Shown: in pieces, positions 1 to 62,736 of the stretch
How the letters are laid out: each line of letters starts with the position of its first letter
Position numbering within the stretch: the first letter of the stretch is position 1
DNA from: Prostheceraeus crozeri
Lineage: Eukaryota > Platyhelminthes > Polycladida > Euryleptidae
DNA length: 64,000 bases
Direction of reading: 5' to 3'
NCBI GenBank assembly: GCA_907163375.1
Contig: CAJQUW010000460.1
Span: 1-64,000 of the forward strand
The notes under the pieces: model-generated
The model's database searches: none
What the model saw: only the letters and a program-made list of their open reading frames with translations
What the model was told of the DNA's origin: nothing
Program-made: the position numbers and the translations under genes

Positions 1-285
1 TTTAACAGCATTTGATATTGCACTAGCTGTACTACCTATAGCAGCTGCTCCTTTTGCAGCAGATGTAATCAAATCTTTATTATTTTTAATTAAGTTAACG
101 ATACTACCAATACCAGAAAAGATGCCATCCCCTTCTTTTTGAACGGCACCTGCGGTGCCTAGGAACTTTTCTGTTCCGACTGTTTCTCTATTATCATAAT
201 GATAAACAGGATTCATACGTGGTTCATGAGCAATTTTTTGATTTGAAGCAAAATGTTTAAGATTGTGTTTATAAATTATAGGCAT
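1..285 (-). CDS. Small pVI/pX-like virion protein, C-terminus off window
   Basis: A 95-codon open frame begins at ATG 285-283 and runs off the left edge. The N-terminus (MPIIYKHNLKHF) is basic and aromatic. The part nearest the edge, from about residue 55, is glycine- and alanine-rich and hydrophobic (GIGSIVNLIKN, then AAKGAAAIGSTASA), a composition seen in small membrane-active or core proteins of adenovirus-like and Polinton-like viruses. The assignment rests on composition and context, not on a diagnostic motif. The frame contains a copy of the dispersed palindromic repeat (140-180), which here is translated. Confidence 0.5.
   Translation of the reverse strand, partial: MPIIYKHNLKHFASNQKIAHEPRMNPVYHYDNRETVGTEKFLGTAGAVQKEGDGIFSGIGSIVNLIKNNKDLITSAAKGAAAIGSTASAISNAVK
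140..180 (-). repeat. Dispersed palindromic element, in-frame copy
   Basis: On the minus strand it reads AGTTCCTAGGCACCGC, with the GGCACCGCAGGTGCC hairpin. It is a diverged member of the family best seen at 4599-4632 and is translated inside the pVI/pX-like frame. Confidence 0.45.
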
Positions 286-325
286 TTTTTAGGATTAAAT
301 TTGACTTTTAGGAAAAACATAAATA

Positions 326-365
326 CGGGCGAAGCGCGAAGCCCTGGAAGACATCTCCGATGTCC
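326..365 (-). repeat. Dispersed palindromic element, intergenic copy
   Basis: Plus-strand GGGCGAAGCGCGAAGCCC (327-344 region) is the exact reverse complement of the core at 4614-4631. It lies just downstream of the 57-residue gene (384-557, minus strand), the same relative place as the copy behind the ATPase gene, so it could also act as a terminator-like hairpin. Confidence 0.75.
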
Positions 366-383
366 ATTATAAAAAAAAAATGT

Positions 384-557
384 TTATTTTTTGTTCTTAA
401 CTTTTACAGATTGCGTTTTTGGTTTAACTTTATCAGGAACCAAACCTGCATCAATCATTCTTTTTATTCTATGATTTTCTTTCATAATATTTCTTTCTTT
501 TATTAACTCTTCTAATTGTTTAATTCTTTTAAAATTATTAGCTCTAATTTTATCCAT
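384..557 (-). CDS. 57-residue paralogue of the N-terminus of the 274-residue protein
   Basis: A complete small gene, ATG at 557-555 and TAA at 386-384. The first 35 or so residues (MDKIRANNFKRIKQLEELIK and onward) nearly match the N-terminus of the protein at 9362-10186 (MDKVRADNFKRIKQ), then the sequence diverges into a lysine-rich tail. The shared part is charged and predicted helical, so it could be a coiled-coil or assembly peptide. It looks like a partial gene duplication on the opposite strand that has kept its reading frame. Function unknown. Confidence 0.7.
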   Translation of the reverse strand: MDKIRANNFKRIKQLEELIKERNIMKENHRIKRMIDAGLVPDKVKPKTQSVKVKNKK

Positions 558-716
558 TTTTAAAATTATATACTTTTATATACTTTTATATATTTATACT
601 TTTATATTTTTAAAATTATATACATATTTTTGTATTTTTTAAATTATATTTATATTTTTTATGATTCTTATTTTTTGTAGGTAAAAAATATTTAAGTTAA
701 TATTTACAATACTCGT
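558..716. other. AT-rich spacer with short direct repeats
   Basis: Contains tandem TATACTTTTA units (about 569-610) and then oligo(T) runs. No gene is seen. It may hold the promoter of the 57-residue gene. Confidence 0.5.
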
Positions 717-1604
717 TTAATATTTACGTTTATGAATATCTAACAACTTCGAGATAACTTTATTAATTGCCTGTTGCACTTTATCTATTGCGTCAAGTAG
801 CGTGTGATGTACTTTAATTTCTTTTCTATTAACTTGTATTTTTTGCTGATTAATCTTCAATGCCGTTTTAAGAGCATTTAACTTAATTTTAAGAACATTT
901 AATTGTCTTTTAACAGCATCTAACTGTTCTTTATTTTCTTTAGAGTTTTCTTGTAAATTTTTCTTTAATTCATTTTCTAAATTGATTTTAAGAGTTTTCA
1001 TTTTATCAACTTTTTCATTAAGTGAGTTTACTTCATTTATTATTCTATTCATCTTTTTCATTTGTTGAGTAATTTTAGAACTCAATTCATCAACACTTTT
1101 TTGGAATGTAGTTTGCAACTGCTTTAAATTTTTTTTAATTCTTTCAGGTAGTTTTTCTATTTCATCTTCTAATTGTTCTTTTAACATTTTTATCTGATGT
1201 TTATTTTTGATGACTGCAGATTTTAAATTTAAAGAAAGTAATATTAAAATTTTTGATTGTTCTGAAATCTTTTTAAAAAGTTTTGCTATATCTGCTTCTA
1301 GCTCTCTATCCTTTTTATCAAGTTTTGATAATTTTTCGTTTAATGATTTGTCATTAAGTTTAAGCAACTTTAATTCGTTCATCAGCGGAACCAAAACATC
1401 GTTTATATATTTTTCTTTTAATTCATTGATTTGCGTATCAACATATTGTTTATTTGTTAACTCTGTATTTTGTTGTGGAAGAATAGAAAGATGTAATGGT
1501 CCAGATAAAACGTCTCCAGTTTTCATGATATAATTTTCTATCTCTATTTCTAATTCACGATTATTCGGGATATATGCACCTCCACCAACATTTGGTAACA
1601 TCAT
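717..1604 (-). CDS. Coiled-coil, fibre-like protein with phage tail-fibre signature
   Basis: A protein of 295 residues if it starts at ATG 1604-1602, or 294 from the next ATG. The frame is open to 1796, but that extension is low-complexity translated spacer and is not used. After a glycine-rich start (PNVGGGAYIPNN) comes MKTGDVLSGPLHL followed by NKQYVDTQI, the arrangement typical of the shaft or collar of phage tail fibres (a G-x-L/M-x-G-x-L step followed by NKxYVD). The remainder, about residues 50-290, is a long heptad-like coiled coil rich in K, L, E, N and I. It may be the virion fibre or spike. No C-terminal receptor-binding knob is recognisable. The minor-strand frame at 1207-1533 is a shadow. 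Confidence 0.6.
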   Translation of the reverse strand: MMLPNVGGGAYIPNNRELEIEIENYIMKTGDVLSGPLHLSILPQQNTELTNKQYVDTQINELKEKYINDVLVPLMNELKLLKLNDKSLNEKLSKLDKKDRELEADIAKLFKKISEQSKILILLSLNLKSAVIKNKHQIKMLKEQLEDEIEKLPERIKKNLKQLQTTFQKSVDELSSKITQQMKKMNRIINEVNSLNEKVDKMKTLKINLENELKKNLQENSKENKEQLDAVKRQLNVLKIKLNALKTALKINQQKIQVNRKEIKVHHTLLDAIDKVQQAINKVISKLLDIHKRKY

Positions 1605-1711
1605 TTTTAAACAATAAAAAAGGAAATTTTTTCTGATTATAAAAAATACATAAATTATAAAAATACATAAATTATAAAAAATAAAATTTTTCCTAATAAA
1701 AATAAAAAAAA

Positions 1712-2655
1712 ATGGAAATGACTCAAATTTGTCAAGTTTGCAATATGCGTTTTTTAAATCAAACACTATTATATTCTCATATGAAAAACACACCATGTGG
1801 TATGCATATGAATCAATTACAACCTAATATACAACCTAATAATATCAACCTAATAATATTCAACCTAATAATATTCAGAATAATATTCAACCTAATAATA
1901 GTATTCAGTATAATAATATTCAATCAGAGCAACCATTACAAAGATTAAAGCATTTATTTATTTCAGATAAAGAACAAAATCTTTATACTGCTAGAATAAA
2001 TACACCTAGGCAAAATACTGCTAGAATAAATACACCTAGGCAAAATACTGCTAGAATAAATACACCTAGGCAAAATACACCTAGCCAAAATACACCTAGG
2101 CAAAATAATAATAATTATTTAGCACAAAATAATAATGTAGCACAAAATAATCCTTTTGTTCAAAATAATCCTTTTGTTCAAAATAATAATGTAGCACAAA
2201 ATAATTATATTGATAAAAATCAACTTGTTGAAAGTAATAACAAAAAAATATGTTCCGGATGTAATAAAAATACAACATCAAAAAATTTTGCACGTCATTT
2301 AAAATTATGTGAACAAACAGAAGAGGTTAAAAAAGAAAAAAAAGATAAATTAAAAGATCAGTTATGTCGTAATTGTAATAAATATTTTACAAATCAAGGA
2401 ATTACTAATCATTATAATTCTTGTATAAGTTCTACAAGACAATGTACAAGTTGTCAAATTACTAAACCTAAGACAGAGTTTTATGATAGTAAATATCAGT
2501 GTAAGGATTGTTTAAAAGAAAAAGTTAAATGTAGAGGTTGTCAAAAAATTATATTAAAGAAAAATTTTCAGCGACATGTAACACTATGTCCAAAACTTAA
2601 TCAACATAATAATCAACATAATAATAATTTATGTCAAAATAATAATTTATGTTAA
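1712..2655 (+). pseudogene. Zinc-finger protein, frameshifted
   Basis: Starts at ATG 1712 with a C2H2-like finger (CQVCNMRF...H). After about 45 codons the reading leaves frame at 1841-1850, where one base is missing relative to neighbouring copies of the same Asn/Pro/Gln-rich repeat. From there the next frame is open to TAA 2653-2655 and encodes a low-complexity NTPRQNTARI/AQNN region and four Cys/His modules (CSGCNKN, CRNCNKYF, CTSCQITK, CRGCQKII). These resemble C2HC fingers and suggest nucleic-acid binding, perhaps a viral transcription factor. The lesion could be a real mutation or a sequence error; recoding cannot be excluded. Confidence 0.6.
1981..2100 (+). repeat. Tandem repeat, 30-bp unit, coding
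   Basis: Three 30-bp units ending in ATAAATACACCTAGG, then 15-bp half units. The period is a multiple of three, so copy number can change without breaking the zinc-finger reading frame. Confidence 0.85.
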
Positions 2656-2673
2656 AATAATAATTTATATTAG

Positions 2674-2750
2674 TATTTCAACTAAAATAGTTGTATTTCA
2701 ACTAAAATAGTTGTATTTCAACTAAAATAGTTGTATTTCAACTAAAATAA
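2674..2750 (+). repeat. Tandem repeat, 20-bp unit with inner palindrome
   Basis: Four units of TATTTCAACTAAAATAGTTG at 2674, 2694, 2714 and 2734 (the last diverged). CAACTAAAATAGTTG is self-complementary. The array follows the zinc-finger gene and could act as a terminator or origin-like array. Confidence 0.85.
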
Positions 2751-2817
2751 TCTTATATATATTAAAATATTATTTTTTTATAAAGAATAAAATATTATTT
2801 TATTAAAATATTCTTAA

Positions 2818-2946
2818 GCATTCCGGAAGAGAGGAGAGGTATAAAAATACTTCTTTTGAGTATAGGAACAAAAAGTCCGACACATTCCGGAGGTTCTACA
2901 GAGGTTAAAAACACTCATAAGAGTGTAAGAATGCTAGTCCGGAATC
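2818..2946 (+). repeat. Degenerate repeat pair built on ATTCCGGA
   Basis: Two diverged units of roughly 64 bp begin ATTCCGGA (2820 and 2885) and contain GAGGT(A)TAAAAA; a closing TCCGGAAT lies near 2939. ACACTCATAAGAGTGT (2909-2924) is a hairpin. The block lies just upstream of the membrane-anchored ATPase gene and may be its promoter or leader. Confidence 0.55.
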
Positions 2947-2988
2947 AACAAATAATAACTCCTAAATTTTTTATTTAAAAAATAATAA

Positions 2989-4581
2989 ATGAATAAAAGC
3001 GAAAATTTGGAAGATTTATATTCACCGGTTATAATTAAAAGTGATAAAAGTAATGAAAGTAATAAAAGTAATCTAACTCGTCATAAATCTCTTAATGCAA
3101 TAAACGAAATAATAAATAATTATATGAATAACACTGAGTTTCAAGATACACTAACCCCTCAAGATCCGAATCTAAAAGATATTAATAATATTGTAGATAA
3201 TCCTATATATAATACTAGATATAATAATAATAATATAGATAAAAATATATATAATAATATAGATAAAAATATATATAATAATATAGATAAAAATTCATAT
3301 AATAATATAGATAAAAATACATATAATAAAAGATATTTAGAGACACTACCCCCTAATTCATCTCTTAATAAAAAAATACCACAATCAGATCTTACACGTC
3401 TTTGGAATTTTTTAAAATTTCATTGTATAAAAATATTGTTAGCATGTATTTTAATATTTTTTATTTATCATCTTGTTATATGTATTGGAAATCAATGGGG
3501 TTACTTTCTAACAGAGGAACAAAAGAGAATAATTTTTTATAATCAAGAAAAAAAAACTTTTGAAGGATGGAAGACTGAGGAAGATAAGATTAAGGATAAA
3601 ACTAATAATAAAAATATTAAACAAGGTAAAATGTATCAAGAAAATTTACATTTCATTGTTTACGGTAAAACTGGAAGTGGTAAGACTACGTTTATTAAAA
3701 AATATATAAACCAATATTATAAGGACGAAACAAAAGTACATATTTTTTGTATGCATACTTCTGAATGGCCAACTTTTACAAACGTCTATAATGATAAACA
3801 ATTAGATGAGTTACAAGATATGGAAAGTTTTGCTGGTACACCTGAAAATAAATCTTTATTAATTTTAGATGATGTTGCAAGTTTATCAAAACAAAAAAAT
3901 ATGTCAGAAATATTTACAAAAGGAAGACATCAAAATATTCAAATAGTTGTATTAGCTCATAAAGCTTGTGATGTAGATAATAAGATTAGAGAAAACATTC
4001 AAACATTTTTTACAACTACACAAAATAATGCAGCATTCTTTAATGATATTAATAAAAATTATAAAATGAATATGCCTTTATCATATTATACACATCATAA
4101 ATATGGAATAATACGTGTTGACACCATAAGTGAACATATGCAAGTATATGATAAAGATTTAAATATATTAGTAGATACTGAACATGAAATCTATAATAAC
4201 TCTCAAGATTTTGATATTAGAATGTATGCAAATACAAAACATTTATCAAATCAAGTTATAGAACAAATAATTATCTTTTTAGAATCCGAAGCAAAAGTAC
4301 CACTAAAAATTATTCCTGATACATTTTATTTTTATTTTGATCATTATTTAAATGCAAAATTTGGTATACCAATACCAAAAAGATTACAAGATAATGAAAC
4401 ATTAAACTATTTAAAAATTGCAATAAATGATGTTAGAAACGGTTTAAGAAAAGCAACACCAATAATATCTGATGTTAAATCTACATTTTCTGATGCTAAA
4501 TCTACATTTGATGAAGCCAAAAAAACATATAATGATATAAAACCATTAATAAATGGTGTAAGTGAAATACTTAGTAATTAA
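2989..4581 (+). CDS. Membrane-anchored P-loop ATPase (A32/FtsK-like)
   Basis: A protein of 530 residues starting at ATG 2989 after an A-rich leader. Order: a polar N-terminus with repeated NNIDKNIY units (about residues 80-115); one strongly hydrophobic segment (ILLACILIFFIYHLVICIG, about 149-167); then an ATPase domain with Walker A GKTGSGKT (226-233), Walker B LLILDDVA (about 290-297) and a downstream FTKGRHQNIQIVVLAHK stretch that parallels the second ATPase of this element; then a C-terminal helical tail with repeated DVKSTFSDAKSTF units. The family packages or translocates viral DNA. An N-terminal membrane anchor is unusual for the Polinton packaging ATPase, which is normally a soluble protein of about 200-260 residues. 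A palindromic element sits 18 bp past the stop. Confidence 0.7.
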   Translation: MNKSENLEDLYSPVIIKSDKSNESNKSNLTRHKSLNAINEIINNYMNNTEFQDTLTPQDPNLKDINNIVDNPIYNTRYNNNNIDKNIYNNIDKNIYNNIDKNSYNNIDKNTYNKRYLETLPPNSSLNKKIPQSDLTRLWNFLKFHCIKILLACILIFFIYHLVICIGNQWGYFLTEEQKRIIFYNQEKKTFEGWKTEEDKIKDKTNNKNIKQGKMYQENLHFIVYGKTGSGKTTFIKKYINQYYKDETKVHIFCMHTSEWPTFTNVYNDKQLDELQDMESFAGTPENKSLLILDDVASLSKQKNMSEIFTKGRHQNIQIVVLAHKACDVDNKIRENIQTFFTTTQNNAAFFNDINKNYKMNMPLSYYTHHKYGIIRVDTISEHMQVYDKDLNILVDTEHEIYNNSQDFDIRMYANTKHLSNQVIEQIIIFLESEAKVPLKIIPDTFYFYFDHYLNAKFGIPIPKRLQDNETLNYLKIAINDVRNGLRKATPIISDVKSTFSDAKSTFDEAKKTYNDIKPLINGVSEILSN

Positions 4582-4598
4582 ACAAATTTATCATAATC

Positions 4599-4632
4599 AA
4601 ACCGAAGGTTCTAGGGCTTCGCGCTTCGCCCG
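4599..4632 (+). repeat. Dispersed palindromic element, reference copy
   Basis: Reads AACCGAAGGTTCTAGGGCTT followed by CGCGCTTCGCCCG. GGGCTTCGCGCTTCGCCC forms a strong GC hairpin in otherwise AT-rich DNA. It follows the ATPase stop codon and could serve as a terminator. Confidence 0.8.
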
Positions 4633-6648
4633 ATTTTGCAGATATATTAGCATTTTTTTTCTCTAAAAATTAAAACATAAATTTTTTTTTTAAAAAAAAT
4701 TTCTCAAATTTTCTCTAAAAAAATAAAAAAATGGAAAAATTTTATTGCAACTTATGTAAAAAAAAGTTGCAAACAAAAAGAAGTTATCAATCTCATCTAC
4801 AAAGTAAAATGCATTTACAAAATGTAGAACGAGTTGATGATGGAAATATATTAAAATTAAATAGTTATAAAAACTATCTAGAAACATTGCCTACTGATAT
4901 AAAAGTTAAAAAAATGTTTGATGATTATTCACATTCGGAATATAAAAAATTTTTTAATAGTGAAGATGAAGCCGTAACAGATATAAAATATTTATTTAGC
5001 GATACTGATGAATTTAACGAAATAGATGAATTTGATGAAGCTGAACGAACCGATGAAGCCTTAGCAAATATAAAATATTTATTTAATCAGTCTTTTGAAC
5101 ATAATGAAACCGATAAAACTTTTTATAATGTATTAACAAACTTTTATAATATATTTAAGAAATCTTTCAAATGTTATATGAATGTAGAAGTACTTTATAC
5201 AAAAAATGGACCTGATGGAATTCCTGAAGAAATAATACAAGGACATTTTACAAATTCGCAAGAAATTCATAATGTAAATGATATACAACCCATATTTGAA
5301 TCGATGATACTTAAATTAGAAAATTGTATAATTGAAGCCCAGTTACGTGAATCTGGTTGGAGATTTGTTAAAATAATATCTAAGAAAATAGTAATTGATA
5401 AATATAAAAATAATACTGGTGGTAGTTATGTTCCTTTACCTTTCAGTTCACCTCAATTAATCAACATAAAAAATGAAGATGATTATTGTTTTCTGTGGAG
5501 TATTATAGCACATTTACAACCTGTAAATATCATAAAGAAAGACTAAGTCATTACAATAAAGAAGAATACATAAGTGAATTTGATCTTTCTGATGGCTTAG
5601 ATGAATTTCCATATGATTATAATAGGTTACTAAAGTTTCATAAAAAGAATAAAAATTTAATTGAAGTAAATGTTTTTGAATAAAATGTGAATTATGTTTC
5701 TATTGGTAAAATTACTCCACTTTACTCAGATTCAAAAAAATTTTATTTGAATAATAAAAATTTTTGCCAATCAGAAATAGTATATAATGACAGAGGTAAT
5801 TACATGCATCATAATATTTTTTACCAAGGAAATATAATATGTACTGAAAAATTTGAACTTGTTAAAACACTATCACCAATAATGATTAATCATAATAATT
5901 ATAAAGGACGTACTGATGATTATAATTACAAATATTCATCTTTATCTTCAGAATACCAACAAAAATTAGAAAATTTAAATAAAAGTTTACAAAAATGTAA
6001 AATAGATTATCAACAACAAACACAAATGTTACTACAAGAATATCACCATAAATATCAAAATAAGATAGAAACAATTCAAAAATTAAATGAAGAAAATAAT
6101 AAAGAATTAAATAATGAAGAATTAAATAATAAAGAATTAAATAATGAAGAAAATGAAACCAATCAAAAAATAAATGAATGTTTAAAAAAATGTCTACAAC
6201 AATATAAAGAACAATATGATAAAGAATATAGTTATCAGTTACAAATATTAAATCAAAATTATTATAAAAATACATTTAATCTTACAAAAGAAATTAATGA
6301 AACACATGAAATATATAAAGATGAATTTGAAAAACTAGTACAGTCAAAACAACCAGCGCAAGCGAATATATTATATTATCAGGGACATTTTATATTGTGT
6401 AAAGATGTTTCTATATTTACAAAAACTTCAGATAATAAAAATTTTCCTTGTCTTCAATGTATGACAAGTTTTAGAACTTTAGAAGAAATGAATAGACATT
6501 TGGAGAATTGTCAACAAAACGAAGCAGTTCAAAATACTTTTCCAAAAGATGATTATTTAGAATATAATAAATGGTATTTTAAAAATAAAGTACCCTTTAC
6601 TATTTATTGTGATTTTGAAGCATATAATGTTAATATGACACAAAATCA

Positions 6649-6680
6649 AACGGAAAGTTCCAGGGCTTCACCCGATTCTG
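6649..6680 (+). repeat. Dispersed palindromic element inside the polymerase gene
   Basis: AAACGGAAAGTTCCAGGGCT followed by TCACCCGATTCTG matches the copy at 4599-4632 closely. It is translated in frame in the low-complexity linker just after Exo I. Confidence 0.7.
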
Positions 6681-7754
6681 AAAATTATAATACTGAAAAT
6701 TATAATTCTGAAAAAAGTGCGCCTGAAAAAAGTGCACCTGGAAAAAGTTCAACTGAACAAAGTAAAGAAAAATATTTATTTGAACAAAAACCATTATGTT
6801 GGGGAATGTACATTTATTCAAATTATCCTAATTTATTTAAATCAGAATATTTTCAATACTATGGTGAAGACAGTTCAGAAATGTTTACAAAGAAAGTAGA
6901 AGAATTACAAGGACGTTTTTCACAATTGCTTGAAACAAATAAACCAATGATACCATTAACGGATGAAGAAAGAAAAGAATTTTATGATGAAATAAATTGT
7001 TATTACTGTGGAAAAGGTTTTACAAATAAATATAAAACTGGCAGAGGTAGATATATTGATAAAGTAAAAGATCATGATCATCTAAATGGATTATATAGAG
7101 GTGCAGCACATAATTCTTGTAATCTTAATGCTAACAAATTTAAATATAACTTTGTTCCTTTATATTTCTATAATGGTTCTAAATATGATTTCCATCTAGT
7201 AATGAAAGATTTATTTTCATCTGAAAAATTACAACAACAAAAAATAAATGTACTATGTAAACAAGAAGAAGAATATTTTTCAATGCAATTAGGTTGTATT
7301 AGAATTTTAGATGCATTTAGATTTTTTACTCCTTATTCATTAGATGTTATGGGAAAAACTTTGAAACCTGAACAATGTAAAATATTAAATAAATATAATT
7401 TAAAACCTTTAAAAGGAATATTTCCGTATGAGTACATAACTGGAGATTTTAATTCTGTGAATAAAATTATGGAAGAAGAACAACTTCCTCCAATAAATAA
7501 ATTTAAATCAACATTAAAACAATCACAATTATCTGAAGAAGATTATGCAGAAGCTGAAAAAAATTGGAGAGAGTTAAATTGTAAAACAATGTATGATTAT
7601 ACAATGAAATATCTACAGATAGATGTATTAATACTAGCTGATCTTTTTGAAAACTTTCGTGATATGTGTTTAGAATATTACGGAATAGATCCATGTTATT
7701 GTTATTCTACACCAGGTTTAACATGGCTAGCAGGATTAAAACATACAAATGTTC

Positions 7755-7782
7755 AAGCCGATGGCTCTAGGACAAAGTCCGT
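7755..7782 (+). repeat. Dispersed palindromic element, second copy in the polymerase gene
   Basis: GCCGATGGCTCTAGGACAAAGTCCG keeps the TCTAGG core and ends in a GGAC/GTCC hairpin. It is translated in frame and is more diverged than the other copies. Confidence 0.45.
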
Positions 7783-9361
7783 TAAACTTAAACATTATAA
7801 AGAAAATACATATGATAAATTATTATTTTTTGAATCTGGAATTAGAGGTGGAGTTTCATCAGTTTTAGGTAATAGATATGTTAAATGTTATAATAAGAAA
7901 GTAAATCCACAAGAATATGGAATAATGAAACCTTTATCTCCAGAAGAAAAAGAAAAAATATTAGAAATTTTTCGAACGAAACGAGAAGGAGTAGAACGTG
8001 AAAATGCAATTGATGAATTCATGAGAGAAAACTATTTATTATATTATGATTTTAATAGCTTATATTCTTCTTGCATGATACAAGAATTACCAACAGGTGA
8101 AATGACATGGTGTAATAATCTTGTTTATCAAAGAACATATGATGGTGAAAATAATTTTGGTTATGTATATGAAGTTGATTTAGTATATCCTGATTATATA
8201 AAAGACGCAACAAAATATTATCCTTTCTGCCCAGAAAACAAAATTCCCAATATAGAAGATTTTTCAGATTATCAAAAATCTATAATTCCGAAAAAATACA
8301 GACCAACAAAAAAACTTATGTTAACACAAAGTAATAAAGGAAAGTATGTTGTTGAAGGAAGAATGCTAGATTGGTATTTAAATCATGGCATGATTCTCAC
8401 CAAAATACATCGAAAACTAGAGTATAGAAAATCTAAATGGTTAAAAAATTATATTGAGTTCAATATTGAAAAACGTAAAATAGCTAAAAGAAATAAAGAT
8501 GATTTTGGAAACGTTTTCTTCAAATTAATGAATAATGCATTTTATGGTAAGACTTTAGAAAATGTACGTAATAGACAAAATATTGAAATAGTTTATGATA
8601 GAGATAGATTTCAAAATTTAACAAGGAAACCTACATATAAAAGAACTACTAGATTCAGTGATAAACTTTGTGCTGTTCATCTAAGAAGAAGCATTGTAAA
8701 ACATGATAAGTTTAATTTCATTGGTTTCACTATATTAGAATTAGCTAAACTATTTATGTATAGTTTTATATATGATTATTTAGCACCTGCTTATGGCAAA
8801 AACTATAAATTACACTTTACAGATACCGATTCTATTTTCTTAGAATTAACAGTACCATATGGTTCTTCACTTGATAAAGAAATTAATAAAATAAAAGATA
8901 TTATTCATCCTTCTGATTTATGTAAAGTAAAAGATGAATTAGAAGGAAATGAAGATTTCATAACAGAAGCTATATTTTTAAAATCTAAATGTTACTGTTA
9001 TGATACAACTAATAATATTAAAACACATAAAACATTAAAAGGAATTTCAAAGGCATCAGTGGCTAATCAAATAACATTTCAAGATTATAAAAATGCATTA
9101 TTTAATAATGAAATAAAAACAGCATATAATTATAGACTTAATTCAAAGAAACATAAAATGTATTTAAAAGAAGAACATAAATTAGCATTAGATCCATTTG
9201 ATGATAAAAGAAAAATTTTACCTGATGGAATAACTACTTTACCTTTTTAATTTTCTAATTTCTATTTTCTAAATATAACAATATAAAAATATAAAAATAT
9301 AAAATATTATAAAATATTATAAAAATAAAATAAAATAATAATATAAAATTATCATATAAAA

Positions 9362-10186
9362 ATGGATAAAGTTAGAGCTGATAATTTTAAAAGAATAAAA
9401 CAATTAGAAGAGTTAATAAAACAAAGAAATATTATGAAAGAAAATCATCTTCAACATAGAATGATAAAAGCTGGTATTCAATCTGATATGTTTGAAAAAA
9501 TGCAGCAAACCGAGCAAGTAAAAACTGATTTTGAGAAAACTATGAAACCATTTAAAACTCTTGAAAAAGAAAGTACAAATAATGATAAACAAATTGATAT
9601 AACAGATCCAGAGCACAAAACTACATTAGATGACTATGGATTACTAGAATCAAACATTAATAAGAAATTACCAAAATCTATGCAATTTGAACATTCTATC
9701 TCATTTATAGATGGAAAAACAATACCTAGATTTTATCTCGGACAAAAAGAAATATTTCCACAACCTTTTCGAGGTTTAATTTTTTCACCAGATAAATCTC
9801 CTTTTAATTTAGATAGAAATTTTGTTAATCTTTTAAGAGGAGCAGATTTAAATAATTATGCTGTAGAAGATCTCATAAAATATAAAGCTATGTTAGATAG
9901 AGTTGGTGCAGTAAAATCTCTTAGACGTTATAAACAATTAGAAAATTTATTATCAACGGGAGTTAAAGTAGGGAAAGGTTTATCTGAAAAACAGAAAACA
10001 GAAACAACCATATTTTTACCAGATGTTCCACAAGAATTACTAAATAGATTAAATATTTTAATATCTGCAATAAAAGAAGGACATAATTCTAGTTTCAATG
10101 AAATTCATGCTATATTGAAAAGACTGTTAGAAAAGAAGATTCTAAATGAAGAGGATTATAAAAGTATAACGAACCGAATGATCTAG
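9362..10186 (+). CDS. 274-residue virion or core protein of unknown function
   Basis: Starts at ATG 9362 after an A-rich leader. The N-terminal 100 residues are charged and helical and are partly duplicated in the 57-residue gene at 384-557. The middle (FIDGKTIPRFYLGQKEIF, about residues 116-133, then FNLDRNFVNLLRG) recalls a conserved uncharacterised protein that sits between polymerase and capsid genes in cnidarian Polinton-like elements; this is from memory and is not decisive. The last residues and the stop codon come from a palindromic element copy (10170-10200), so the C-terminus may have been altered by that insertion. Confidence 0.65.
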   Translation: MDKVRADNFKRIKQLEELIKQRNIMKENHLQHRMIKAGIQSDMFEKMQQTEQVKTDFEKTMKPFKTLEKESTNNDKQIDITDPEHKTTLDDYGLLESNINKKLPKSMQFEHSISFIDGKTIPRFYLGQKEIFPQPFRGLIFSPDKSPFNLDRNFVNLLRGADLNNYAVEDLIKYKAMLDRVGAVKSLRRYKQLENLLSTGVKVGKGLSEKQKTETTIFLPDVPQELLNRLNILISAIKEGHNSSFNEIHAILKRLLEKKILNEEDYKSITNRMI

Positions 10187-10200
10187 GACTTCGCCCATAG
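10170..10200 (+). repeat. Dispersed palindromic element supplying a stop codon
   Basis: GAACCGAATGATCTAGGACT followed by TCGCCC. The TAG of its TCTAGG core is the stop codon of the 274-residue gene. Confidence 0.65.
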
Positions 10201-10264
10201 CTGAAATATGTTGTTGTTTTTAATTTTTTATAAAAAAAATATTTATTTAATTTTTAGTTTAAAA

Positions 10265-11053
10265 ATGTGTTCAGCAGATTTAGACAAAATTAATAATCAT
10301 TTAGAAAATCTAACAGAGATTTTGGGTTCATCAAAATTTAGTACGACATTAAAAATTATAACAACTACTTCATCACACACTTGTAATTTAGAACCCATTC
10401 TACATTTAGAACAAAATAAAAATTATCAAATTGCATTGACTAGTTTCTCTACATTTAACACTATTCAAAACGTTATCAAAGATGTGAATGATCAATTTAG
10501 ATATTCTACTGATAAAGGCAAAACATGGAAAATATTAACTTTTCTTCCTGGTTCTTACGAAGTTGAAACAATATCAAATGAAATTAAGAGACATTTAGGT
10601 ATACCATTTAAAGATAAGAAACAATTACATTTTGCAGTTGAACCGGCAGTTAATAAATTTTCTCTTACTTTAGACGAAAATCATCAAGTTGATTTTAATC
10701 ATGATAGATCATTGTCAAAGCTATTAGGATTTAATAAACAAACCTATAGTCAAGGTTATCATTTAGGTGAGAAGATTCCAAAAATAACTGAAATAAATTC
10801 AATTGTTGTACATTGTGACATTATTGAAGGAGGATATATAAATGGTAAATTATCAAATTTAATATTCAGTTTTCCAGCTTTTACTGTACCCATTGGTTAT
10901 AGATTAAATGTAATTCCACAAACATTAATATATTTCCCTATTACAAGAAAAACTATTAACAACATTGGCATTAGAATCACTGATGAAAAAGGACAAGAAA
11001 TAAATTTTGGAGGTGAAGAGATTATGATAGATCTTTTGGTACGGGAGGTATAA
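10265..11053 (+). CDS. Penton-like minor capsid protein (jelly-roll candidate)
   Basis: A protein of 262 residues from ATG 10265, preferred over the upstream ATG at 10208 because the extra 19 residues are translated AT-rich leader. Residues such as NYQIALTSFSTF, RYSTDKGKTW, GSYEVETI, LSKLLGF, CDIIEGGYINGKLSN and the C-terminal IRITDEKGQEINFGGEE match the pattern of a capsid protein family found with Polinton/adintovirus polymerases in many invertebrate genomes (beta-rich, about 260 residues). It probably forms the capsid vertex. The stop lies inside a small hairpin repeat. The frame is intact. Confidence 0.65.
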   Translation: MCSADLDKINNHLENLTEILGSSKFSTTLKIITTTSSHTCNLEPILHLEQNKNYQIALTSFSTFNTIQNVIKDVNDQFRYSTDKGKTWKILTFLPGSYEVETISNEIKRHLGIPFKDKKQLHFAVEPAVNKFSLTLDENHQVDFNHDRSLSKLLGFNKQTYSQGYHLGEKIPKITEINSIVVHCDIIEGGYINGKLSNLIFSFPAFTVPIGYRLNVIPQTLIYFPITRKTINNIGIRITDEKGQEINFGGEEIMIDLLVREV

Positions 11054-11097
11054 ACTCCCGTTCGAGAGGTATAAACTCCCGTTCGAGAGGTATAAAC
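11040..11097 (+). repeat. 21-bp hairpin repeat at the capsid gene stop
   Basis: Two and a half units of GAGGTATAAACTCCCGTTCGA. ACGGGAGGTATAAACTCCCGT is a palindrome and contains the TAA stop. A terminator role is plausible. Confidence 0.8.
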
Positions 11098-11234
11098 TTT
11101 TACGCTACAATAGAGAAGTTTAATTTTTTTATCATTTTTCATTATTAACCTTATTAATCTTATTATTAGAAACAAAAAAAATAAACTTAAATTAAAATTT
11201 TTATTTTTTTGTTTTTAAAAACACTAATTCAATA

Positions 11235-12023
11235 ATGGATGAATTTATTACTTTAAAAATGAATGAAATGACTTTAAATAAAAAAAAACTTAAATTTAAT
11301 CATCATCCAAATTTATCTAATAAAGTTTTGTCAGTTATTTGTGGAAGATCAGGATGTGGAAAAACATATCTATTATTTAAAATTTTAACGACTCCAAATT
11401 TTTTGGATTATAACAATCTTATAATTTATACAACAACGGCAGAACAACCCGTCTATCAATTTTTAAAATATGGATTTGAAAATAATCTTACAAAAACAGC
11501 AATTGCTTCTCTATTCGAAGAATACGAAAAATCTGAATATGAAGAAGAAATAAATTTGTGGTGTGAAGAAGCAGCAAAAAATAAACAATTAGTTGAATCC
11601 AATAAAAATAAGCATATAAAAATACAATTAATAGATGATAGTGGTAATATGCAAGATCCTAGTAAACTAGATAAAACAATGAAACATTGTGTAATTTTTG
11701 ATGATTGTGTTAATGACAGAAATCAGTCAGTTCAAAGAAATTATTTCACAAGAGGTAGACATAATAACTGTAGTGTATTTTATTTAACACAAAGTATGTA
11801 TTCATTAGATGGAAGTGTTATTAGAAAGAATGCAAATATATTTATACTATTTGAAATAAATGCAAGAAACTTAAGTGATTTGTTAAGAGATTTATGTATA
11901 AGAGATAAAGATGAATTTAAACAATCGTGTAATAATGCTTGGTCAAAAGATTATGGATTTATCACAATTAATATTGATAAAAAAATTCATGAAAGAGTTA
12001 TCGAACAATTGTTTACCGAGTAA
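11235..12023 (+). CDS. DNA-packaging ATPase (A32/FtsK-HerA type)
   Basis: A protein of 262 residues. Walker A GRSGCGKT at residues 37-44, Walker B CVIFDDCVN near residue 155, then YFTRGRHNNCSVFYLTQS, the conserved sensor stretch of Polinton and adintovirus packaging ATPases, and IRKNANIFILF. Length and motif order are those of the usual family member, so this is the likely canonical packaging motor, pumping DNA into the capsid. The frame is intact. It differs strongly from the longer, membrane-anchored ATPase at 2989-4581. Confidence 0.85.
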   Translation: MDEFITLKMNEMTLNKKKLKFNHHPNLSNKVLSVICGRSGCGKTYLLFKILTTPNFLDYNNLIIYTTTAEQPVYQFLKYGFENNLTKTAIASLFEEYEKSEYEEEINLWCEEAAKNKQLVESNKNKHIKIQLIDDSGNMQDPSKLDKTMKHCVIFDDCVNDRNQSVQRNYFTRGRHNNCSVFYLTQSMYSLDGSVIRKNANIFILFEINARNLSDLLRDLCIRDKDEFKQSCNNAWSKDYGFITINIDKKIHERVIEQLFTE

Positions 12024-12185
12024 TAAAAATATACAAATATAATGTTTTAATATTTTATTTTTTATTATCAGCTTTAATTTTGTCTATTTTTTTAAAATAT
12101 AATATTTGAATTTTGTGGTAACATTAGAATACAGCAAAAACATTTTACTGAACAAATTATTTTTTTATTGCTTTGTTGTTTGACA

Positions 12186-12305
12186 TCTTTTCGTTTAAAG
12201 TTTTCTCGTTTTAAGTTTTCTTTAATAAAGTTTTCACGTTTAAAATTTTCTCGTTTAAAATTTTCTCGTATTAAGTTTTGTTTAATAAAGTTTTGTCTAA
12301 TAAAG
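12186..12305 (+). repeat. Tandem TAAAGTTTTCTCGTT-type repeat
   Basis: About seven degenerate units of 15-21 bp, partly coding for the repetitive C-terminus of the membrane protein on the minus strand (LLDKTLLNKT). Indels in this array probably set the position of the stop codon. Confidence 0.75.
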
Positions 12306-12990
12306 TTTTTAGCTCTTCTAAAAAAATTTTATCATCACTAAAAGTTTTACCATCACTAGAAATTTTGCCATCCTTTTTATTTTTATCATCAACTTTTTCT
12401 GTCTGTGATTGAAATGATATTTGATTTACTTCATTAGCTATTTGATCAAATTTTTCAATCTCATCTAACGTAATAACATTATCATCACATACTCTTTGAA
12501 AGTAGTAATGTAGTTTATCATATACTTCTTTAATATGTAAATGCTTAGTTTTTAATGATTTTCGTTTCTTAGTTATTAAAGATTTTTCTAACATTGTAGC
12601 AAGTGAAGTTGCAAAAACACCCGTACCTGTTAAAGCTGTAGCAACTACTGGAATTACTAAAACACCTGAAGATATAACAATTGTTAAAGCACCTAAACTT
12701 ATTGTTAAGAATATGCCAATTCCTTGTGTTACATTCTTAACTTTACTCCATCTCTTTCTTAATTTTTTATAATGCTCTAATCTTAATAATAATTGAGATT
12801 CCTTATCTTTCATATACCTTACTCTATCTTTGTGTTTTTCAATATTTAATTCACTTATTTTTAATTGAGATAACGAAGGATATATTCTTGCGGTTTCATC
12901 CATTTCTGAAGTTCCTTCCACTTTTGTTTCTTCCATTTTTAAAGAAATATTTTTAACGGCGAAGCCCTGAACCTTCGGTTCGCTAGTCAC
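12271..12990 (-). CDS. Two-segment transmembrane protein with flanking helices
   Basis: A protein of 239 residues from ATG 12990; an alternative start at ATG 12936 would remove the part derived from a palindromic element (SEPKVQGFAVK). A charged helical N-terminal half is followed by a long hydrophobic hairpin (GIFLTISLGALTIVISSGV and IPVVATALTGTG, about residues 90-125), a basic KKRKSLKTKH segment and an acidic DDNVITLDEIEKF stretch. The layout resembles a conserved membrane protein at the end of many cnidarian Polinton-like elements; its role is unknown, perhaps capsid maturation or membrane passage. The C-terminus is repetitive. Confidence 0.65.
   Translation of the reverse strand: MTSEPKVQGFAVKNISLKMEETKVEGTSEMDETARIYPSLSQLKISELNIEKHKDRVRYMKDKESQLLLRLEHYKKLRKRWSKVKNVTQGIGIFLTISLGALTIVISSGVLVIPVVATALTGTGVFATSLATMLEKSLITKKRKSLKTKHLHIKEVYDKLHYYFQRVCDDNVITLDEIEKFDQIANEVNQISFQSQTEKVDDKNKKDGKISSDGKTFSDDKIFLEELKTLLDKTLLNKT
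12957..12985 (-). repeat. Dispersed palindromic element at a gene start
   Basis: Minus strand GCGAACCGAAGGTTCAGGGC followed by TTCGCCG, very close to 4599-4632. It provides codons 3-12 if the first ATG of the membrane protein is used. Confidence 0.75.
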
Positions 12991-13029: not shown

Positions 13030-13310
13030 TGAATTTGAAATTCTCAACTTTTATGATTTTTTCGGTGTCCGGGTTTTCGGTGTCCTAGAACGGTCATGAT
13101 TTTGGCGGGGGGTGAAAAATGACATAATCACAAATTTGAGATTCTTAACTTTTATAATTTTCGGTGTCCTAGAACGGTCATGATTTAAGCAATGAAAAAT
13201 GTCATAATCACAAATTTGAGATTCTTAACTTTTATGATTTTCGGTGTCCTGGAACGGTCATGATTTAAGCAATGAAAAATGTCATAATCACAAATTTGAG
13301 ATTTTGAAAA
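13030..13310 (+). repeat. 80-bp tandem repeat near the right end of the element
   Basis: CATAATCACAAATTTGAG recurs at 13123, 13203 and 13283, exactly 80 bp apart, with GGTGTCCTAGAACGGTCATG in each unit and a partial unit before. It may be part of the terminal repeat or an origin region. Confidence 0.9.
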
Positions 13311-13375
13311 ATTTGAAAATTGGGTATTTTTAAAAACGCCCAAATCGGAGCGAAGCTCCTCTAGCTTTAGCCGAT

Positions 13376-61879: not shown

Positions 61880-62571
61880 CTACGTTTGTCTTCTTCCTCC
61901 AATCTGCAGTGGTCTCAGATTCTTAATGTAGTCTCTAAGGCTTCTATATTCTCTTTCTATAATCTCGGTAATATTTTTCAAACCCCTTCCTCCCTGAGCC
62001 CGCGGTAGGTAGAGGCGATCGACATCCGCCCGCGGATGGAGGCCACCGTACATATTCATTATCTTCCGCGTTTTTCTATCTAGTTCTTCTAGTTCTTGTT
62101 TGGTCCAGCTGATTATTCCTCCCGTGTAGCTGATGACCGGTATTGCGTGAATGTTAATGGCTTGTACCTTATTCATTGCATTTAACTTTGACTTTAGCAT
62201 CTTTTTTAGTCTCTTTTTGTACTCTGTCCCAGCCTTCCTCTTGGCTTTATCATCCATATTGGTCCGATACTGTGGTATGCCCAGATACTTATATCTTTCT
62301 TCACTAATATCCGTTATGCATATTCCATCAATTTTAACACCATTGCCTCGAGATATTTTTCCTCGGTGGATGACAATGCGGGCACATTTATCAACTCCAA
62401 ATTTCATTTTGATGTCGTTGGAGAATATCTTCATGGTATTTATTAGACAGTTTATATAGTTTTCTGTTCTACCGTAAAGTTTCAAGTCATCCATACATAG
62501 CAGGTGATTGATTTCGGGAAATTTTGGTTGATTTCGACTCCTTGCGCAGTCAACCTTATTAATAATTCTTT
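61880..62571 (-). pseudogene. Reverse transcriptase C-terminal part of the R4-like LINE
   Basis: CMDDLKLYGRTENYINCLI carries the DD catalytic pair; MKFGVDKCARIVIHRGK, ERYKYLGI, ELDRKTRKIMNMYGGLHPRA and LYLPRAQGGRGL follow in R4/Dong order. The first nine codons of the open frame (62,572-62,593) come from the SRP-like segment and are not LINE sequence. Confidence 0.8.
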
Positions 62572-62631
62572 CGACCGGGTGTTTGGCACGCACCTGTAAT
62601 CCAGCTACTTGGAGGTCACTAAAGTGGATTA
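62572..62631 (+). repeat. SRP (7SL) RNA-like segment, copy 1
   Basis: CGACCGGGTGTTTGGCACGC, then ACCTGTAATCCAGCTACTTG and GAGGTCACTAAAGTGGAT, resembles the Alu domain of SRP RNA (GGC...CCTGTA.TCC.AGCTAC...GGAGG). Confidence 0.5.
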
Positions 62632-62675
62632 GAACCTTAATAACTATATTGTAATATCATCTATATCCTTACAGC

Positions 62676-62736
62676 CGACCGGGCGTGTGGCGAACACCTG
62701 TAATCCAGCTACGTGGAGGTCGGAAGTGGATCAGAC
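62676..62736 (+). repeat. SRP (7SL) RNA-like segment, copy 2
   Basis: CGACCGGGCGTGTGGCGAAC, then ACCTGTAATCCAGCTACGTG and GAGGTCGGAAGTGGATC, is the better match. No SRP S-domain follows. Confidence 0.55.

Follow-up and report, generated by a model that had tools for sequence, protein, structure and literature searches.

Short double-hairpin elements at polymorphic sites of a Polinton/adintovirus-type provirus in the flatworm Prostheceraeus crozeri

Mobile palindromes are already known from mitochondria, from Rickettsia and from a giant virus. According to the extracts of the papers from which our comparisons here and below are drawn, one cluster of the yeast mitochondrial GC42 family is reported inside the var (rps3) gene, and yeast GC clusters also merge and shuffle (PMC4478555). 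Fungal mitochondrial double-hairpin elements are GC-rich, consist of two hairpins and are potentially mobile, and those of the fission yeasts treated there are located in spacers and rRNA genes (PMC10085805). The bacterial Rickettsia palindromic elements measure about 150 bp, with a spacer example of 25–102 bp (PMC1950309, PMC10969869), and the Submariner miniature inverted-repeat transposable elements (MITEs) of Pandoravirus salinus carry terminal inverted repeats and a TA duplication, with 10 of 30 copies in coding regions (PMC4495683). How the GC clusters, the double-hairpin elements and the Rickettsia palindromes move is still unsettled. Here, we analysed the first 64,000 nucleotides (nt) of contig CAJQUW010000460.1 of the polyclad flatworm Prostheceraeus crozeri (the window), in which the AT-rich first 13.6 kb is a Polinton/adintovirus-type provirus with eight GC-rich palindromic elements, c1 to c8 (coordinates in the table).

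We read these as members of a family of non-autonomous mobile double-hairpin elements of 28 nt, or 35 nt with a longer second loop, that spread among copies of one Polinton/adintovirus-type virus, and put the probability of this reading at roughly 0.87. They are polymorphic insertions of a defined unit, with a short A/T repeat at clean sites, and have spread inside one virus family. Their behaviour is closest to that of yeast mitochondrial GC clusters and double-hairpin elements, and their insertion into coding DNA resembles that of the Rickettsia palindromic elements; they are strict members of none of these groups. Like yeast GC clusters, they are GC-rich palindromes in AT-rich DNA with short direct repeats (9 of 15 sites) and site polymorphism, and their units merge and shuffle (a tandem in locus L011, two head types at one site), as the extract describes for the yeast clusters (PMC4478555). 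Unlike those clusters as presented there, they measure 28 instead of 42 nt and occupy a provirus, with several polymorphic coding insertions, instead of a mitochondrial genome, the comparison being one of description only. The mitochondrial location of GC clusters and double-hairpin elements was not found here, since 50 of 50 inspected loci are proviral; the host mitochondrial DNA itself was not searched.

With double-hairpin elements they share two hairpins and a short linker, and they differ from the extract's account of these in lying also in viral protein genes and in having a 2-bp repeat at clean sites. Like the Rickettsia elements in the extracts, they are palindromic and are found in frame in protein genes as well as in spacers, at 26–40 nt versus about 150 bp, a comparison of length and description only. 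This likeness had been drawn in a first reading of the window from its letters alone (the sequence-only reading); it holds for in-frame coding insertion and is otherwise an analogy. Submariner, in the extract, is likewise a non-autonomous element multiplied within a DNA virus; in contrast to that giant-virus element with its terminal inverted repeats and TA, the present ones are 28-nt double hairpins flanked by AT, TT or TA. Among the matches listed in a search of open-licence papers, we found no report of such elements in Polinton-type viruses; what is new relative to that literature is a 28-nt double-hairpin family in a Polinton-type virus with nucleotide-level empty sites in a replication gene. 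This viral case, in a nuclear-type assembly, offers thousands of matches, clean empty sites, a 2-bp repeat and a unit with a defined length of 28 nt, so that the mechanism becomes readable from comparative data and testable in vitro. It also presents small mobile elements that repeatedly lengthen viral replication proteins with the frame intact.

Filled and empty sites in copies of one virus

Sister copies of the virus and related proteins showed filled and empty sites, which supports the proposal of the sequence-only reading that a family of palindromic elements is inserted in genes and spacers. All seven places named by it are real members, and c8 is an eighth. It had also held that ordinary coding sequence would be indicated if relatives showed identical residues at identical positions; the opposite was found. 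Because sister copies and relatives show empty alleles, the elements are mobile double-hairpin elements and not conserved coding sequence.

At the nucleotide level, the 271-aa zinc-finger gene has three positions (A, B and C) at which some virus copies carry an element and others do not. Between the filled locus L047 and the empty window, the flanks are 100% and 98.4% identical, and TA is present twice in the former and once in the latter. The c4 site is empty, with a single AT, in one locus (L056). The c5 site is filled in the window, L053, L054 and L056 and empty, with a single TT, in L045, L052, L055, L057 and L058; no match to this site was found in L051. Only L045 carries an element at yet another polymerase site, which stands empty in the window and in no fewer than seven further loci. 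At the c7 site, the fetched set gives 12 filled alignments and 18 empty ones, with overlapping loci counted, and among the fetched loci no nucleotide-level empty site was seen for c2 and c3. Empty c8 sites occur in L007–L010, L012, L031 and L033 (L007 and L008 overlap), with a single AT when the element is taken as bounded by C and G, and the virus end region is filled in many alignments and empty in several. The same end region contains 80-nt tandem repeats (13074–13303), and many of the repeat units in other virus copies carry the element at the same AT position.

For c1 and c6, empty alleles are known from proteins only. Protein P0121, which aligns with 82% of the 274-residue protein at 98% identity, lacks c6, and the joined flanks of c6 read KSIAEICCCF*, which is the C-terminus of P0121; less decayed versions occupy the c6 site in L058 and L019. 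Over the 95 residues compared, P0135 is identical to the small virion protein except that the 12 residues contributed by c1 are missing, and P0134 and P0138 retain a diverged insert at this site. The c4 and c5 peptides are missing from 16 aligned polymerase relatives, some of them partial, wherever the sites are covered. The sense-strand peptide motif was found in 0 of the 120 relatives listed (of 156); the antisense pattern is too loose to tell. The C-termini of P0135 and P0147 carry an extra stretch like GETLRSGAPS, missing in P0138 and P0137, which, going by the protein sequences, may represent a further element insertion in the small virion protein.

Across the host assembly (2.05 Gb), the 20-mer core proposed by the sequence-only reading has 15,450 matches with at most 3 mismatches, compared to 41 for a reversed control pattern. 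All of the 50 loci inspected around exact matches, namely the first 30 plus 20 chosen regions among 100 listed exact places, some of them overlapping, lie in copies of this virus: 41 have a viral gene in the fetched 2–3 kb, and the other nine match the virus end region only. Identical or near-identical elements occur at unrelated sites.

Element architecture, flanking repeats and reading frame

The common form consists of C, hairpin 1, a CTA or CCA linker, hairpin 2 and G, and the common 28-mer in the genome loci reads C(G/A)AACCGAAGGTTCTAGGGCTTCGCCCG; the 35-nt form is also present, and element length ranges from 26 to 40 nt. All eight window copies can be fitted to a layout in which a short linker (TA, CTA, CCA, CA, TCTA or TTCCA) joins hairpin 1 to hairpin 2, c6 being decayed; five of the eight have GAA as the loop of hairpin 1. 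The 20-mer core had been taken as shared by all copies. It is exact at 4602–4621 and is present with at most 3 mismatches also at 10174 (mean 0 matches in 100 shuffles); the other copies share the architecture and parts of the sequence. Both c5 and c8 measure 28 nt with different stem sequences, c5 having both sides of one pair changed in each hairpin. Because c1, c2, c5 and c8 differ in stem sequence yet share the shape, the comparison suggests that shape rather than sequence is recognised.

Under the two-hairpin structure 86.2% of cells are paired, versus at most 49.6% when it is slid. Permuting the first-hairpin arms among the eight copies gave 17.9 pairs compared to the 29 of 32 observed, with 12 of 40,320 permutations equally good. 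A descriptor (hairpin, linker ending in C/T-A, GG-hairpin, GC content at least 50%), which misses c4, c6 and c8, made six strand matches in the 13.7-kb virus, corresponding to five distinct copies (c1, c2, c3, c5 and c7), against a mean of 0.025 and a maximum of 1 in 40 shuffles. In 50 kb of host DNA it made 12 matches (mean 5.9, maximum 11 in 15 shuffles); by eye these are unlike the family, and two of them belong to adjacent copies of a single repeat. Trained on c4–c7, a covariance model recovered c3 independently at E=8.6e-5 and its training copies at E=4.3e-4 or better; c2 was reached only at E=8.4, and c1 and c8 were undetected. No match was found in Rfam at gathering scores. In IMG/VR, the patterns tried had no exact match, and relatives of the polymerase or the 274-aa protein were not found; the GTDB species genomes scanned contained no exact match to the 20-mer, and phage matches were at chance level.

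First hairpins are exchanged between copies. Two kinds of first hairpin, the usual one and the GACATC..GATGTC type of c2, occur as alternatives at c4, c6, c7 and site C, with hardly any change in the second hairpin. The c2 head type is also present at other sites in L011, L016, L029 and L052; L011 has both head types in tandem, and the L045 polymerase also has a second-type copy (580–596).

Nine of the 15 sites have an exact dinucleotide on both sides in at least one copy: AT at the end region, the L045 site, c3, c4 and c8, TA at A, B and the antisense polymerase site, and TT at c5. Of 21 distinct flank pairs, 11 match compared to 5.07 in shuffled pairs, a number reached in 1 of 2000 shuffles, and none of the 21 matches over 3, 4 or 5 nt. 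At clean-ended sites, the A/T dinucleotide stands twice when the site is filled and once when it is empty; the unclean sites may be older, mutated insertions. A 3-nt target duplication, considered from c5 and c6 alone, was dropped since the nucleotide-level empty sites show 2 nt.

Element and repeat together make 30 nt, so that the reading frame is kept. The 28-mer is open in four of six phases. Among nine coding sites inspected for phase, six (A, B, C, the L045 site, c4 and c5) share one sense phase, read as variants of TEGSRASP. Of the remaining three, c1 uses another sense phase, c6 is terminated by the TAG that it carries, and a polymerase site has the element in antisense. Selection seems to have filtered the coding copies. 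A rule of strict sense orientation could not be kept, as the antisense polymerase site is real in L051, L055 and L056; with 37 rows in sense and 5 in antisense within genes (sites being represented by several rows), orientation is biased, not strict. Among the catalogued copies, the 35-nt form is confined to spacers or the end region, and the second head type at the c4 site measures 37 nt, a length that would also keep the frame there. The two in-frame copies within the DNA polymerase (c4 and c5), the one within the small virion protein (c1) and the TAG stop that c6 gives to the 274-residue protein had been recognised correctly from the letters. That c7 supplies the start region of the membrane-type protein was not borne out: c7 ends 20 nt before the ATG (12936) and so lies in the leader.

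Movement of the elements and alternative explanations

The elements could move if a nuclease cut with a 2-nt stagger and the element were then copied or pasted in, whereupon gap filling would double the dinucleotide. Genic copies that persist would be those in which element and repeat make 30 nt, mostly in the TEGSRASP phase, and recombination among virus copies would reshuffle filled and empty alleles as well as first-hairpin types. The nuclease might be encoded by the virus or the host; as a guess, one candidate is the endonuclease-VII-like domain of the polymerase family. Enzymes of the endonuclease-VII class act on branched DNA. The domain (PF02945) was matched in many of the 120 polymerase relatives listed; in the window polymerase it reached only E=0.0032, below the cut-off. 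The fuller picture is of an ultra-short, shape-recognised element living in a Polinton-type virus, moved by a 2-nt-stagger nuclease, possibly the viral endonuclease-VII-like domain, and spreading at low cost through viral replication genes as 30 nt with its target repeat and as a hydrophilic peptide. We offer it tentatively, at somewhat less than even odds.

If the copies were ordinary conserved coding sequence or structured RNA (terminators, leaders), GC-rich by chance, their position in genes and leaders and their capacity to fold would be expected; the empty alleles in relatives and sister copies and the lack of the sense peptide motif among the listed relatives argue against this, and for c1, c4, c5, c6 and c8 the empty alleles refute it, so that we give the idea next to no weight. 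Translational-bypass inserts, which are skipped by the ribosome, are reported in some yeast mitochondria and would likewise be hairpin inserts in coding DNA. With six of nine coding sites keeping the frame in the same open sense phase, bypass is unneeded there, and we regard this explanation as extremely improbable.

Two further explanations take the dinucleotide repeats into account. Short MITEs mobilised by a Tc1/mariner-type transposase of the host, the mechanism put forward for Submariner in P. salinus, would leave a 2-bp A/T repeat, which is TA at A, B and the antisense polymerase site, and they have a viral precedent with copies inside genes in the extract of that report (PMC4495683). 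However, the nine clean sites comprise AT (5) and TT (1) besides TA (3), and instead of terminal inverted repeats we found a single C...G pair around two separate internal hairpins; moreover, 28 nt would offer scant room for transposase sites. We therefore consider a Tc1/mariner origin highly doubtful. No transposase would be needed if the protein-primed polymerase of the virus switched templates or slipped where short A/T homologies occur: the 2-nt direct repeats amount to microhomology, the first hairpin is exchanged at fixed positions with the second constant (c4, c6, c7 and site C), and L011 holds a tandem pair. Yet several unrelated sites contain identical 28-mers that begin and end alike, which requires a defined unit and makes template switching unlikely as the source of the insertions.

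Several points weigh against the reading as mobile double-hairpin elements. An exact repeat is lacking at six of the 15 sites (C, c1, c2, c6, c7 and a site upstream of the 271-aa gene) and also in some of the copies at A and B; the 21 flank pairs are not independent of one another, since variants of a single site are among them. Pairing of the second hairpin is just modestly above permuted arms (240 of 5040 as good), and the arms in the permutation test were hand-picked by the analyst because they pair. Covariation is weak in a closely related 13-sequence set, in which two pairs are double-changed and 103 of 500 shuffles do equally well; strong covariation within the common subtype is unsupported by this set. 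Both c5 flank types occur filled and empty, which implies recombination or recurrence, so that presence and absence do not count transposition events. No mobilising enzyme was found, and the 50 loci inspected out of 15,450 matches come from first-listed contigs, few of the 14,165.

The carrier provirus and its surroundings

Features of the window: element copies and genes of the carrier provirus
Feature	Position	Strand	Description
c1	144..178	-	GGAAC..GTTCC, TA, GGCACC..GGTGCC; translated in small virion protein, 12 extra residues; flanks GT/TT, no clean repeat
c2	326..365	-	first hairpin differs (GACATC GGA GATGTC); upstream of small virion gene; flanks AT/TA
c3	4598..4632	+	35 nt; between ATPase and zinc-finger gene; exact 20-mer core; flanks AT/AT
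c4	6647..6674	+	28 nt; in frame in polymerase (TESSRASPD); flanks AT/AT
c5	7754..7781	+	28 nt; in frame in polymerase (ADGSRTKS); flanks TT/TT
c6	10170..10197	+	decayed 28 nt; supplies TAG stop of 274-residue protein; one extra A, hence no exact repeat
c7	12957..12982	-	shortened; leader of membrane-type protein gene; ends not clean
c8	13346..13373	+	28 nt; stems unrelated, architecture same; virus end region; flanks AT/AT
DNA polymerase B, protein-primed type, larger open piece	5687..9250	+	PF03175 E=2.5e-18
A32-type packaging ATPase	2989..4581	+	PF04665 E=1.9e-9
274-residue viral protein	9362..10186	+	terminated by c6; protein comparison
Small virion-type protein	1..285	-	label from the sequence-only reading; truncated at contig start; contains c1

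The first 14 kb of the window have a GC content of 23–28% (2-kb steps), and the remainder is host DNA with 34–47% GC. Viral-type genes of the provirus include DNA polymerase B (PF03175) and two A32-type ATPases, among others. With a protein-primed type polymerase B and an A32-type ATPase both present, the carrier looks like a Polinton or adintovirus, judged by these two genes only; no capsid or integrase gene was recognised among the window open reading frames (ORFs) scanned, and the left virus end lies beyond the contig start. This other end is missing because the window is the start of its contig (C382); the stretch at 13.0–13.6 kb is probably the virus end region, to judge from its position beside viral genes in many copies. 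The polymerase region is split into open pieces at 4731–5546 and 5687–9250 (+), and the close relative P0002 (1248 aa) is a single protein; the window copy seems broken between its two pieces.

Other repeats in the provirus are a perfect tandem repeat of a 20-nt unit at 2673–2749 (3.8 copies) and a 21-nt unit, GAGGTATAAACTCCCGTTCGA, in tandem at 11045–11098, at the end of a 262-aa ORF, with a similar GAGAGGTATAAA stretch near 2835 (about 2833–2845). Between 2821 and 2945, the motif TTCCGGA occurs three times in 125 nt, with a predicted fold of about −35 kcal/mol, a value without shuffle control; this is perhaps another hairpin family. The host part of the window carries a Ty3-type retrotransposon with a SCAN match, fragments of the long interspersed nuclear element type and a piggyBac-type transposase. 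At about 62570–62720 (−), it also holds two adjacent copies, ~100 nt apart, of a stretch resembling GTAGCTGGATTACAGG, which we take to be a motif of 7SL-derived short interspersed nuclear elements.

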